26,368 nt of DNA from a virus. A program made the translations under genes and the position numbers. The DNA is taken from positions 1-26,368 of the IMG/VR virus record IMGVR_UViG_3300037132_000368. One strand, written 5' to 3'. How positions within the stretch are numbered: the first letter of the stretch is position 1; each line of letters begins with the position of its first letter. Below, one piece after another: positions 8,222 to 24,675 of this stretch. The notes beneath the pieces were generated by a model. The model was not told the DNA's origin, searched no databases, and saw nothing but the letters and a program-made list of their open reading frames with translations.

Positions 8222-8353
8222 ATGTGTATCGAGACCATGCGGATCAGGCTGCTACAGACGGCAGAGCAATGCGGCCTGAACCATCCGAAAACGCTGCGGA
8301 TGAGCCAGCGGCTGGATGAACTAATAGCGGAGTGGTATGAACTGAGCGCTTGA
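8222..8353 (+). CDS. Spo0E-like aspartyl-phosphate phosphatase homologue
   Basis: A 43-residue protein. Two short helices are joined by a loop: IETMRIRLLQTAEQCG, then TLRMSQRLDELIAEWYEL. The SQxLDxLI-x-xWY pattern is the signature of the Spo0E family, whose members dephosphorylate Spo0A-P and delay sporulation. The conserved Asp of SQRLD is present. ATG 8222 has no well-spaced ribosome site; GGGAG (8198-8202) would better suit a CTG at 8210, which overlaps the previous stop. Translation is probably coupled. Family assignment is by motif and length; activity on the host Spo0A is inferred. Confidence 0.8.
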   Translation: MCIETMRIRLLQTAEQCGLNHPKTLRMSQRLDELIAEWYELSA

Positions 8354-20738: not shown

Positions 20739-20781
20739 ACTACGACAAGTCAATTATAACATAATCCGGGAGGTGGCAAGC

Positions 20782-21324
20782 TTGTCAAAGACAATGAACA
20801 AGAAGCCGGCCATAAAAGAGACAAATTACGAGGTAATCATTCAGCAGGCGGTAAAAGCAGGGATTGAGGCTGGCCGCGCACAGATCGACAGCAGATCAAA
20901 AGAGGCATACCGGGCGACGGAGCGGCGGCTGTATGCGCTGACGACTCTGATCGGCAAGGTTGAGAACGCCAAGGAAAGGCTGCGTGACCTCGAAACCCAC
21001 GGGCCGCAAGCGAGGAGCAAGGACATTGCCAGGTTCTCCCGGTCCGGGATGCGGATCGATGCTGAAGACATATGGGATGCTATGATCACTGACGAGCAGG
21101 CGAAGATCGCTAGCGATGAATACGAGATCGCCACGATGAAAGAAGCTCTTGGAAACATCGAGGATGACCGCTATTACCCTGCTATTGAGGGGCGATATTT
21201 CTCAAAACTCTCTGATGAGGAAATAGCAGCGCAGATCCCCTGTGACACCACCACCGTATGGCGCCAGAGAGTCCGCCTAGTGCAGATCGTAGCTGTTTGG
21301 CTCTACGGTGCCCAAGCTGTCTGA
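20782..21324 (+). CDS. ArpU/sigma-like late transcription regulator
   Basis: A 180-residue protein. The start is TTG 20782 because GGGAGG lies about 9 nt upstream; an in-frame GTG (20773) is too close to it. The C-terminal 50 residues form a sigma region 4-like HTH (LSDEEIAAQIPCDTTTVWRQ, then RVRLVQIVAVWLYG) that fits the ArpU/RinA class of phage late activators. The N-terminal part is helical with a coiled coil (ERRLYALTTLIGKVENAKER). It ends three bases before a phased TGCAA array and is upstream of the packaging genes, so it probably activates the late operon. Confidence 0.85.
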   Translation: MSKTMNKKPAIKETNYEVIIQQAVKAGIEAGRAQIDSRSKEAYRATERRLYALTTLIGKVENAKERLRDLETHGPQARSKDIARFSRSGMRIDAEDIWDAMITDEQAKIASDEYEIATMKEALGNIEDDRYYPAIEGRYFSKLSDEEIAAQIPCDTTTVWRQRVRLVQIVAVWLYGAQAV

Positions 21325-21326
21325 GA

Positions 21327-21377
21327 TGCAATTTTGGTGCAATTTTACCGTGCAAAAAATGTGCAATAGACGTGCAA
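21327..21377 (+). repeat. Five phased TGCAA repeats
   Basis: TGCAA begins at 21327, 21338, 21351, 21362 and 21373, so spacing is 11, 13, 11 and 11 bp, close to one helical turn. Four of the five have GTGCAA. The array starts just after the stop region of the late regulator gene and is followed by noncoding DNA. It is a good candidate binding array for that regulator. Confidence 0.75.
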
Positions 21378-21413
21378 TCTGACTCGTGATATGCTTCTTA
21401 TGATGGAAAATTA

Positions 21414-21495: not shown

Positions 21496-21510
21496 GCTAT
21501 ATGCAGATAA

Positions 21511-21538
21511 GTCGTCCACCCGGGCGGCTGTTTTATTT
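21511..21538 (+). terminator. Intrinsic terminator before Spo0E-like cassette
   Basis: GTCGTCC (21511-21517) pairs with GGGCGGC (21522-21528) over 7 bp with two G-U pairs and an ACCC loop. It is followed by the T-rich TGTTTTATTT. It would isolate the downstream Spo0E-like gene from upstream transcription or attenuate late transcription. Confidence 0.65.
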
Positions 21539-21582: not shown

Positions 21583-21753
21583 TTGTCATCAAAAATAGAG
21601 GAAGTATTAAAGAGAATTGATGAGCTAAAGCAGGAGTTGTTAGATCTGGAGACGGGGAAAACCTTATCGGATCCAGAGGTTATCAAGAAAAGCCAGGAGT
21701 TAAATATCGTGCTAAACGAATACTATCGACTGTTGCTAAAACATAAGAATTGA
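21583..21753 (+). CDS. Second Spo0E-like protein, Asp-to-Asn variant
   Basis: A 56-residue protein starting at TTG 21583, with AAGGGGG about 9 nt upstream. Two helices: KIEEVLKRIDELKQELLDLE and DPEVIKKSQELNIVLNEYYR, joined by TGKTLS. DPEV-x-x-x-SQEL-x-x-x-L-NEYY is a clear Spo0E-family pattern, but the conserved acidic residue of SQELD is Asn41 here. Loss of that Asp would be expected to reduce phosphatase activity, leaving a possible binding-only protein. It is flanked by terminators on both sides, like an independently transcribed moron. No strong promoter is seen; TACTAT (21554-21559) is a weak -10 candidate. Confidence 0.82.
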   Translation: MSSKIEEVLKRIDELKQELLDLETGKTLSDPEVIKKSQELNIVLNEYYRLLLKHKN

Positions 21754-21758
21754 AAGAG

Positions 21759-21788
21759 AGCCGCCCGCCCAGGCGGCTGAATTATTTT
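21759..21788 (+). terminator. Intrinsic terminator after Spo0E-like gene
   Basis: AGCCGCC (21759-21765) and GGCGGCT (21772-21778) form a perfect 7-bp stem with a 6-nt loop, followed by GAATTATTTT. It lies 5 nt after the Spo0E-like stop. Confidence 0.72.
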
Positions 21789-21851: not shown

Positions 21852-22199
21852 ATGCCTGATGAGGAGTTTTTGGAAGCAATTAAGGAAGTTAATAAGTATC
21901 ATTTTTATTCTGAAGCTGTTACTTATTTAGAAAAAAAGAAAGAGACGGTAGTTGAAAATTTAAGAAATTTAATTAATGAGGCAAATGAAGTTAGGGCGGA
22001 CATAGGAAAGCAAACGGTGATAGTTGAGTACCCAAATATCACTCAGGAAGAAACGAAAATAGATCTAGGTCTTTTAATGCCCAAATTAGATAAGTGTCGA
22101 AAGAAGATACAAGATATGCTTAAAAATGAACTTGAGCCGATAAATAAGGCGATTGATGATTACAAAACAACGCTAGACGGTTACCAAAATAAAGCCTAA
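21852..22199 (+). CDS. AT-rich coiled-coil protein, moron-like
   Basis: A 115-residue protein with ATG 21852 and AAGGGAGG 7 nt upstream. It is almost entirely helical and charged, with Lys, Glu and Asn abundant (EAVTYLEKKKETVVENLRNL; KLDKCRKKIQDMLKNELEPI), so probably a coiled coil. The gene is clearly richer in A and T than everything around it and has its own terminator, suggesting recent acquisition. The function is unknown. It lies between the Spo0E-like gene and terminase. Confidence 0.8.
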   Translation: MPDEEFLEAIKEVNKYHFYSEAVTYLEKKKETVVENLRNLINEANEVRADIGKQTVIVEYPNITQEETKIDLGLLMPKLDKCRKKIQDMLKNELEPINKAIDDYKTTLDGYQNKA

Positions 22200-22219
22200 G
22201 AGCCTTCGGGCTCTTTTTT
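22199..22219 (+). terminator. Intrinsic terminator before terminase
   Basis: AGAGCC (22199-22204) and GGCTCT (22209-22214) form a perfect 6-bp stem with a TTCG tetraloop, followed by T6 (22214-22219). It starts within the stop codon of the coiled-coil gene and directly precedes the parS-like site. Confidence 0.9.
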
Positions 22220-22250: not shown

Positions 22251-23300
22251 GTGGAGGTGATGGGACGCACCGCAAAGCACAACCCTGATGCTCTATATCG
22301 GGAGTATTGCCAGGGACGTTACAAGAGCGTGGCCGAATTCTGCAAGGCAAGGAAGCTTCCCTATGATCTTGTTCGCCATATGTTTAAGAAAATCATGGAA
22401 GAATCAGAGCAGCAAAAACCGGCTAAAACCGGTCAAAAAAATCGGTCAAAACCGGCTAAAAATAATGACCGGATCGAAGAATCGGCTAGAAAACCTGCTC
22501 AGACCTGGGAGCGCTTGAAGAAGCAATTCACTGACTGGCCGCAAGAGAAGCTTGATTCCTACTTGGTGCAGATAGAGCAGCGCCTGGCCGAACTGAATGT
22601 CGTCGACTTCGATGAACTCACCACCGAAGAGCAGGAGGAGCTCGGGCAGCTCCGCCGAGAGCGCCGGGCGATCCTCTCCGATCCGGACCCGGACAAGATA
22701 TGCAACGGTCACCGGCATGGTGGCCAACCCTGCAAGAACCCGGTGGAGCGCGGCAAGGAGAAATGTTGGCAGCATGGTGGAGCTCCGGGGACTGGGGCGC
22801 CGGCGGGGAATAAGAACGGGATGCGCCACGGCTTCTTCAGCCGGATCATGCCGGACGACCCAGAGCTTAAAGCAATCATTGAGGAGATCGATGCCAAGAG
22901 CCCGATCGATATAGTTTGGGATCAGATTGTCATCCAGTACGCCCAGATTGCCCGGGCGCAAAAGCTAATGTATGTCCAGGACAAGGATGATATCGTCAGG
23001 CATCTGAAGCGAGAAAAAGAGTCGGATCACGCCTGGGAGAAGGAGTGGGAATTCCAGTATCCGTGGGACCGGCATGCTGCATTCTTGACAGCCCAGTCCA
23101 AGGCGATGGGTACTCTTGAAAGGCTGATCGCCCGTCATGATGCGATGGCCAACGATGAGCAGAAGCTCAAGACCGCAAAACTCAAGGCCGAGATCGAGCT
23201 GTTAAAGAAGAACCCGGGAGCCAGTGAAAAGACCGCTGAAATGGAAGCGGCTATCGACGAGGCGTGGCGGAAACGGAGTGAGCAGCATGCTCAGCTCTGA
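22251..23300 (+). CDS. terS: Terminase small subunit
   Basis: A 349-residue DNA-recognition subunit of the packaging motor. Residues 10-45 form a HTH (DALYREYCQGRYKSVAEFCK). A Lys/Pro/Asn linker follows (55-72), then a coiled coil (about 86-140) and a Cys/His motif (CNGHRHGGQPC, then CWQHGGAPGTG; C151, C161, C172, H175). NKNGMRHGFFSRI (187-199) is typical of these subunits. The C-terminus is helical (about 280-345). GTG 22251 and ATG 22260 are both possible starts and GGAGG lies between them. It overlaps the large subunit by 14 nt. Its HTH probably recognises the packaging site, perhaps nearby. Confidence 0.88.
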   Translation: MEVMGRTAKHNPDALYREYCQGRYKSVAEFCKARKLPYDLVRHMFKKIMEESEQQKPAKTGQKNRSKPAKNNDRIEESARKPAQTWERLKKQFTDWPQEKLDSYLVQIEQRLAELNVVDFDELTTEEQEELGQLRRERRAILSDPDPDKICNGHRHGGQPCKNPVERGKEKCWQHGGAPGTGAPAGNKNGMRHGFFSRIMPDDPELKAIIEEIDAKSPIDIVWDQIVIQYAQIARAQKLMYVQDKDDIVRHLKREKESDHAWEKEWEFQYPWDRHAAFLTAQSKAMGTLERLIARHDAMANDEQKLKTAKLKAEIELLKKNPGASEKTAEMEAAIDEAWRKRSEQHAQL

Positions 23301-24675
23301 TGCTGTCGCCTATTACATCGACCACCCGACTGAATTCGTTTATGACATAATCAGGGCCACCCCGACTGACTATCAGGGCGACATCCTCCGTCAGGTGGCC
23401 AGCCGGCAGCGCGTGGCCATCAAGTCAGGTCATGGCACCGGCAAGTCCTCGATGGAGAGCTGGGCAATCCTCTGGTTCCTGGCGACCAGGCCGTTTCCGA
23501 AGATTCCTTGCACCGCACCTACTCAGCACCAACTTTCGGACATCCTCTGGGCAGAACTCTCCAAGTGGAAACGCCAGAGCCTGCTTGATTCATGCTTCAC
23601 CTGGACGGCTCAGAAGCTTTACTTCAACCCGCATCCGGAAGAGTGGTTCGCGGTAGCACGCACCGCCTCGACCAATGAAGCCCTGCAGGGCTTTCATGCT
23701 GATCACCTGTTGTTCATAATTGACGAGGCCTCGGGTATCGATGACGAGATATTTCAGCCCGTCGCCGGCGCCTTGAGTGGTAACGACAACAAGCTTTTCA
23801 TGTGCGGAAACCCGACACAACTCAGCGGGTTCTTTTTTGATTCGTTCGGTAAGGACGCTGCGCTTTATGCTACAGCCACCCTGAACTCCGAGAATAGCTC
23901 GCTGGTGTCGCCTGAGTTCTGCCTCTTCATCGCCTCGAAGTGGGGCAAGGATTCAGACGTCTACCGTGTCCGGGTGCTGGGGTTGTTCCCGAAGGCGGCG
24001 CCTGATTCATTCATTCCGTCTGACTGGATTGAACGGGCGATGCGGAAAGAGATCGTGATCCCCGAGGAGCCGAAGATCATCCGGATCGGCGTGGATATCG
24101 CCCGCTTCGGTGATGATTCAACCGTGCTGGCCACCAGACTGGACAACAAGATCATCGACCTGGAGCAGCACCGGAAAGAGGGCACGACACAGACCACCGG
24201 CCACGTCGTCTACAAGGCGAAGCATCTGCATGCGCAGTACCCGGGCAGAACAATCGACGCCTTGACTGACGATGGCGGCCTCGGCGGCGGCGTGACCGAC
24301 GAGCTGGAAGAGCAGAAGCGGGAGCAGAACCTGGACTGGCTGAACGTCGTCCCCGTCAACTTTGGATCGGCATCCCGGGATGATGATTATGACAATAAGG
24401 GCGGCGAGATCTGGGGCAACGTTCGCAACCTGCTGCAGACTCAGGAGATCGAACTGCCGCAGGATGATGAACTGCTGAGTCAGATGACCAACCGCAAGTA
24501 CACCATCAGCAGCAAAGGCAAGATCGTTATCGAGCCTAAGAAGGATATGAAAAAGCGGGGCGTGGGTTCGCCCGACAAGGCCGATGCCGTGGCGCTGGCC
24601 TTCGCAGACGAACACAACGCCTGGCTTGAATACCTCAAGGGCGAGGCTGAACGCGCCAAGGAAGGGAGGCAATAG
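23287..24675 (+). CDS. terL: Terminase large subunit
   Basis: A 462-residue packaging ATPase and nuclease. ATPase domain: Walker A SGHGTGKSS (47-55), Walker B LLFIIDEAS (141-149) and motif III CGNPTQ (173-178). RNase H-like nuclease domain: D270 in GVDIARFGDD, D328 in LTDDGG, and D430/D433 in SPDKADAVALA. ATG 23287 is preferred because it has GGAGTG upstream and gives the usual short N-terminus; longer in-frame starts read into the small subunit gene. It cuts the concatemer and drives DNA into the prohead through the portal encoded next. Confidence 0.95.
   Translation: MLSSDAVAYYIDHPTEFVYDIIRATPTDYQGDILRQVASRQRVAIKSGHGTGKSSMESWAILWFLATRPFPKIPCTAPTQHQLSDILWAELSKWKRQSLLDSCFTWTAQKLYFNPHPEEWFAVARTASTNEALQGFHADHLLFIIDEASGIDDEIFQPVAGALSGNDNKLFMCGNPTQLSGFFFDSFGKDAALYATATLNSENSSLVSPEFCLFIASKWGKDSDVYRVRVLGLFPKAAPDSFIPSDWIERAMRKEIVIPEEPKIIRIGVDIARFGDDSTVLATRLDNKIIDLEQHRKEGTTQTTGHVVYKAKHLHAQYPGRTIDALTDDGGLGGGVTDELEEQKREQNLDWLNVVPVNFGSASRDDDYDNKGGEIWGNVRNLLQTQEIELPQDDELLSQMTNRKYTISSKGKIVIEPKKDMKKRGVGSPDKADAVALAFADEHNAWLEYLKGEAERAKEGRQ

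Follow-up and report, generated by a model that had tools for sequence, protein, structure and literature searches.

An Asn-type Spo0E-like gene in an accessory cassette before phage terminase genes, and its probable action on host sporulation

A small gene lying just before the terminase genes of a phage encodes a Spo0E-like protein in which Asn takes the place of the Asp of the family signature, and this protein probably represents an Asn-type branch of the family that was taken from the chromosome of a spore-forming member of the Bacillota, docks on Spo0A and acts as a brake on sporulation. The gene lies in a record of 26.4 kb of virus DNA (IMG/VR record IMGVR_UViG_3300037132_000368; the window, that is, the whole stretch of 26,368 nucleotides analysed), which is bounded by an integrase on one side and by terminase genes on the other. 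The last 3029 bases of the window recur with 100% identity in the viral contig L003, which extends past this point; the window therefore covers only part of a longer phage. The two Spo0E-like genes of the window and the signals of the second are as follows.

8222..8353, plus strand: first Spo0E-like gene, Asp-type (SQRLD), about 43 aa, in the early region; PF09388 match of 44.6 bits
21568..21573, plus strand: Shine-Dalgarno-like AGGGGG, about 9 nt 5' of the TTG at 21583, read from the sequence
21583..21753, plus strand: Asn-type Spo0E-like gene, 56 aa with a TTG start; PF09388 match (E 2.8e-11) and AlphaFold hairpin
21691..21705, plus strand: signature SQELN, with the Asn codon AAT at 21703-21705 replacing the family Asp, from the sequence and the family comparison

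That the phage carries two such genes had been proposed from the sequence alone, and the PF09388 matches at both places bear this out. The second open reading frame runs from the TTG to a stop at 21753, and its product, with the motif DPEV-IKK-SQELN-IV-LNEYY, reaches 43.7 bits against PF09388 in the profile search (cut-off 23), a match recovered independently in a six-frame scan of the record; it is a genuine gene, and a Spo0E-like homologue well above chance. The signature SxxxD is not present in its strict form, since SQELN has Asn for Asp, and the protein is thus a PF09388 homologue that is non-canonical as an SxxxD Spo0E, while I12, P31, S37, L40 and Y47, conserved positions of the family, are all retained. 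The AlphaFold model from the single sequence is a two-helix hairpin (helices 3-23 and 31-55, mean pLDDT 90). When searched with the family profile, the PDB gives matches to 2c0s and 2bzb, two solved Spo0E-like proteins, and the fold comparison aligns 54 residues with 2c0s (32% identity, rmsd 2.1, Z 7.7), but it is uninformative, since many unrelated helical hairpins give similar scores. The single protein gave chance matches to ubiquitin and ribosomal proteins only in the PDB (phmmer), zero matches in a direct search of the viral collection, and one chance match, to a tape-measure protein, in a tblastn search of annotated phages; a query of the Asn type built from chromosomal relatives had zero matches among annotated phages, and the plasmid search returned two weak Spo0E-family matches from Paenibacillus and nothing else.

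The surroundings of the gene are formed by the following elements.

20773..21324, plus strand: transcription regulator of the phrog_36 family, late-type, by phrog_36 match, 5' of the slot
21510..21538, plus strand: upstream terminator, a stem-loop (21510-21529) with a T-rich tail, matching the single terminator of the same slot in the relative contig L004
21759..21787, plus strand: downstream terminator, a hairpin (21759-21778) with a T-rich tail, repeating the upstream terminator in direct orientation at 79% identity
21852..22199, plus strand: AT-rich gene of 115 aa with no function assigned, also accessory and sharing the slot with the Spo0E-like gene
22251..23300, plus strand: terminase small subunit (phrog_509, E 1.7e-50)
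23266..24675, plus strand: terminase large subunit, by its relatives and position

Two further claims of the sequence-only reading hold on this map, namely that the gene forms a terminator-bounded cassette, and that it sits at the early/late boundary, with the regulator 5' and the two terminase genes 3'. The two terminators constitute a 29-nt direct repeat, 249 bp apart, in a region where 10 terminator-like sites are observed against 1.7 expected. A scan limited to sigma-70-type promoters found none between the upstream terminator and the gene, so the description of the cassette as its own transcription unit derives from the terminators only. Several GTGCAAT/TGCAAT repeats, possibly operator sites, occur in the non-coding stretch 21327-21383, which lies 3' of the regulator gene and 5' of the cassette. 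The GC content is about 43% across the insert, compared with 55–60% in the flanking region, and the gene at 21852-22199, with 33–35% GC, has a strong terminator behind it (22198-22215).

The syntenic contig L004, whose large terminase gene is 78% identical to that of the window at the DNA level, keeps the order of regulator, terminator, small terminase and large terminase, and its terminator agrees with the upstream one of the window over 21 nt with one mismatch. Its slot has this single terminator and no Spo0E-like gene; a different, unrelated 55-aa open reading frame (L004:1708-1875), with no family match, lies there between terminator and small terminase. None of the 57 loci with related terminases or regulator has a Spo0E-like gene in the DNA available, several of them being short or cut by contig ends, and the query with the late regulator yielded one distant relative and no more. 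With its own terminator, its deviating base composition and its absence from the syntenic relatives, the cassette is by all appearances an accessory insert (a “moron”) in a variable slot just 5' of the terminase genes. The simplest reading is that this slot gained a unit of gene plus terminator; that such units are exchanged through the repeated terminator is a guess. An unrelated phage contig has a Spo0E-like gene of the Asp type (L289:49-219), followed by a terminator of its own and placed directly 5' of the small and large terminase genes, which means that the placement of a Spo0E-like gene before the terminases recurs.

The closest relatives of the phage protein are found in bacteria. When 398 genomes from a single Bacillota phylum were searched, the best matches were L090 (55% identity) and L091 (49%), both with Asn, and a profile search of 113 genomes of the class to which these belong added L141, L142 and L143, also of the Asn type; all five (about 43–57% identical to the phage protein) are located on bacterial chromosomes of this one class. 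In a tree of 222 distinct family members, built with the Asn/Asp column removed, these same five are the rows nearest to the phage protein and the next readable ones have Asp, so that the closest relatives share the Asn even with that column excluded. Support is low, every branch that includes the window protein being below the 95% mark, as would be expected from about 41–42 columns, and for this reason the ranking was relied on. The earlier view that Asn is unusual at a near-universal Asp agrees with the family comparison, in which 118 of 118 sampled members have Asp, a count that omits the places already fetched by Asn-type queries and is not strictly an unbiased frequency; among the distinct sequences gathered, Asn occurs in 12 of 222, most of the 12 having been deliberately sought. 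The other cases of Asn come from genomes of the order Sporomusales (L075/L122, L124, L083) and from L153 in the same class as the five; two Sporomusa proteins with SDEMN appear separate, and parsimony on the tree counts five Asn/Asp changes. L090 and L141, in two genomes, are both found between groEL and cysK, a shared position that indicates a chromosomal and inherited gene, and the other three have other chromosomal neighbours. As far as such comparisons can tell, the Asn is a lasting feature that marks a small lineage of host genes, the SxxxN branch, and did not arise in this phage. The literature searched did not yield any account of an Asn branch conserved within the Spo0E family, which does not prove that there is none.

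An AT-rich insert that is absent from related phages might also be thought a decaying or neutral passenger that lost its Asp by drift, a reading that is very improbable and already contradicted: the frame is open and has a good ribosome site, and all five nearest homologues have the Asn. Within the branch its codon varies between AAT and AAC, and there is little nonsynonymous change although most synonymous sites have reached saturation; dN/dS, mostly undefined because of this saturation, could be measured in three pairs only, at 0.06, 0.25 and 0.39. As a single transition would turn Asn into Asp, the retention is meaningful, and the Asn looks to have been kept by selection.

The sequence-only reading had also supposed that one intact and one altered copy in the same phage stand for an enzyme and its competitor. 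As a decoy, the Asn-type protein would be a catalytically dead competitor of the Asp-type Spo0E of the phage or of the host, and would favor sporulation; this we regard as improbable, even if the Asp is otherwise near-universal and reported to be critical (PMC11115286; PMC3035606), and even if four genomes (G170, G222, G487 and G488) carry both kinds. In G467, whose completeness is unstated, the Asn gene is the sole PF09388 match found, with no Asp partner, and this, together with the retained Asn and the groEL-cysK locus, speaks against the gene being a defective copy or needing an Asp-type partner for its role. Moreover, a dead binder would also cover the phosphorylation site, given that catalytically dead RapH still inhibits phosphotransfer (PMC3035606), and sporulation need not rise. 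Nor are the two phage genes a recent duplicate pair, since they sit far apart on the family tree, beside different relatives. A prophage in genome G451, which shares seven genes with the window, the most among the available loci, has likewise two Spo0E-like genes, assigned to one prophage whose borders are unmapped (coordinates in G451:C106:40001-80000):

47261-47368, plus strand: Spo0E-like gene (L298), early region, Asp-type
78814-78936, minus strand: Spo0E-like gene (L299), just past the lysis genes, Asp-type

Paired Spo0E-like genes in one phage thus recur without an altered copy, and two copies need not mean that one is active and the other inactive; the pairing of enzyme and competitor is not supported, and the decoy role is without positive support. 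This prophage belongs to the same Bacillota class as the Asn relatives, which links the phage to that host class. Another genome, G471, has an integrase akin to that of the window and, about 0.7 kb away from it, a Spo0E-like gene of the Asp type (L147), which suggests that Spo0E-like genes in this class may often travel on mobile elements.

The distance between the two phage proteins on the tree could instead reflect different targets, as the sequence-only reading had also suggested, the Asn-type protein acting on another response regulator or on an RstA-like partner rather than on Spo0A. In C. difficile, the contacts of Spo0E include RstA, and it has effects on motility and toxin (PMC11115286); genomes of the class have up to seven family members, suggesting divided targets. 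This reading is nevertheless rather unlikely, for the most conserved family positions, listed above, are kept. To our knowledge, the direct target data for the Spo0E-like family concern Spo0A, which also counts against it.

Action on Spo0A is the reading preferred here, and it would comprise several steps: (i) a temperate phage would have acquired the gene from the chromosome of its spore-forming Bacillota host, and would carry it as a self-contained moron, with a copy of a terminator on either side, in the slot just 5' of the terminase genes; (ii) the two-helix hairpin would dock over the phosphorylated Asp in the receiver domain of a response regulator of the host, which is most probably Spo0A; (iii) the Asn side chain might orient a water molecule for hydrolysis, like Asn99 of CheX, or the protein might only block the site; (iv) and finally, with active Spo0A lowered, the infected or lysogenic cell would be held from sporulation, this delay being the benefit. 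Since a dead binder also covers the site, an active phosphatase and a pure blocker would both restrain Spo0A.

The chemistry of the third step bears on what is held about the family. The Asp of SxxxD is considered critical for Spo0E function (PMC11115286), as also stated where PMC3035606 cites Diaz et al. 2008, although PMC3035606 itself leaves the chemistry of Spo0E-like proteins open and favors an acidic residue. In the CheX/CheC and Rap phosphatases an amide side chain can dephosphorylate a receiver domain (Asn99 in CheX, Gln47 in RapH), but their folds differ from that of the phage protein, and in CheX an acidic residue serves as an additional partner. RapH functions with Gln or Glu but not with Asn, its Q47N form being dead, so that catalysis may fail where the length of the amide is wrong, which counts against catalysis by Asn (PMC3035606). 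It is therefore only tentatively, and with more doubt than confidence, that we propose SxxxN to be a functional Spo0E branch without the supposed catalytic Asp, its members either using an amide for hydrolysis, in the manner of CheX, or acting purely as anti-activators of Spo0A, and adopted by phages against host sporulation.

The protein resembles the Spo0E-like phosphatases of PF09388 (Spo0E, YisI and YnzD of B. subtilis; 2c0s, 2bzb) in its length, its helix-loop-helix, the signature Ser and hydrophobic positions and a score above the cut-off, and differs in having Asn where they carry the signature Asp, and in its location in a terminator-bounded phage insert. Spo0E of C. difficile, likewise two-helix, with 53 aa, binds Spo0A (PMC11210211), has been modelled over its phosphorylation site and is thought to block it; that protein has Asp42 in SxxxD, is chromosomal, and has RstA as a further contact (PMC11115286). 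Spo0E homologues on phages have been proposed, as here, to manipulate sporulation, in Brevibacillus phages (PMC4909266), temperate phages of Firmicutes (PMC10075063) and gene 51 of TP-84 (PMC10969951); the available parts of these sources do not mention an Asn variant, and that of PMC10075063 places its Spo0E genes next to quorum-sensing genes, of which none were seen in the window. Phage-borne Spo0E genes are thus already known, and what would be new is the Asn branch, here with a member on a phage.

The catalytic step of Spo0E-like proteins is unsettled, and published views of it depend on a single Asp. A natural Asn branch, comprising at least five proteins encoded on chromosomes and one on a phage, offers ready material for separating binding from catalysis, with which the supposed need for the Asp becomes testable. 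If the reading is true, it would add a variant to the known phage routes into the sporulation decision.
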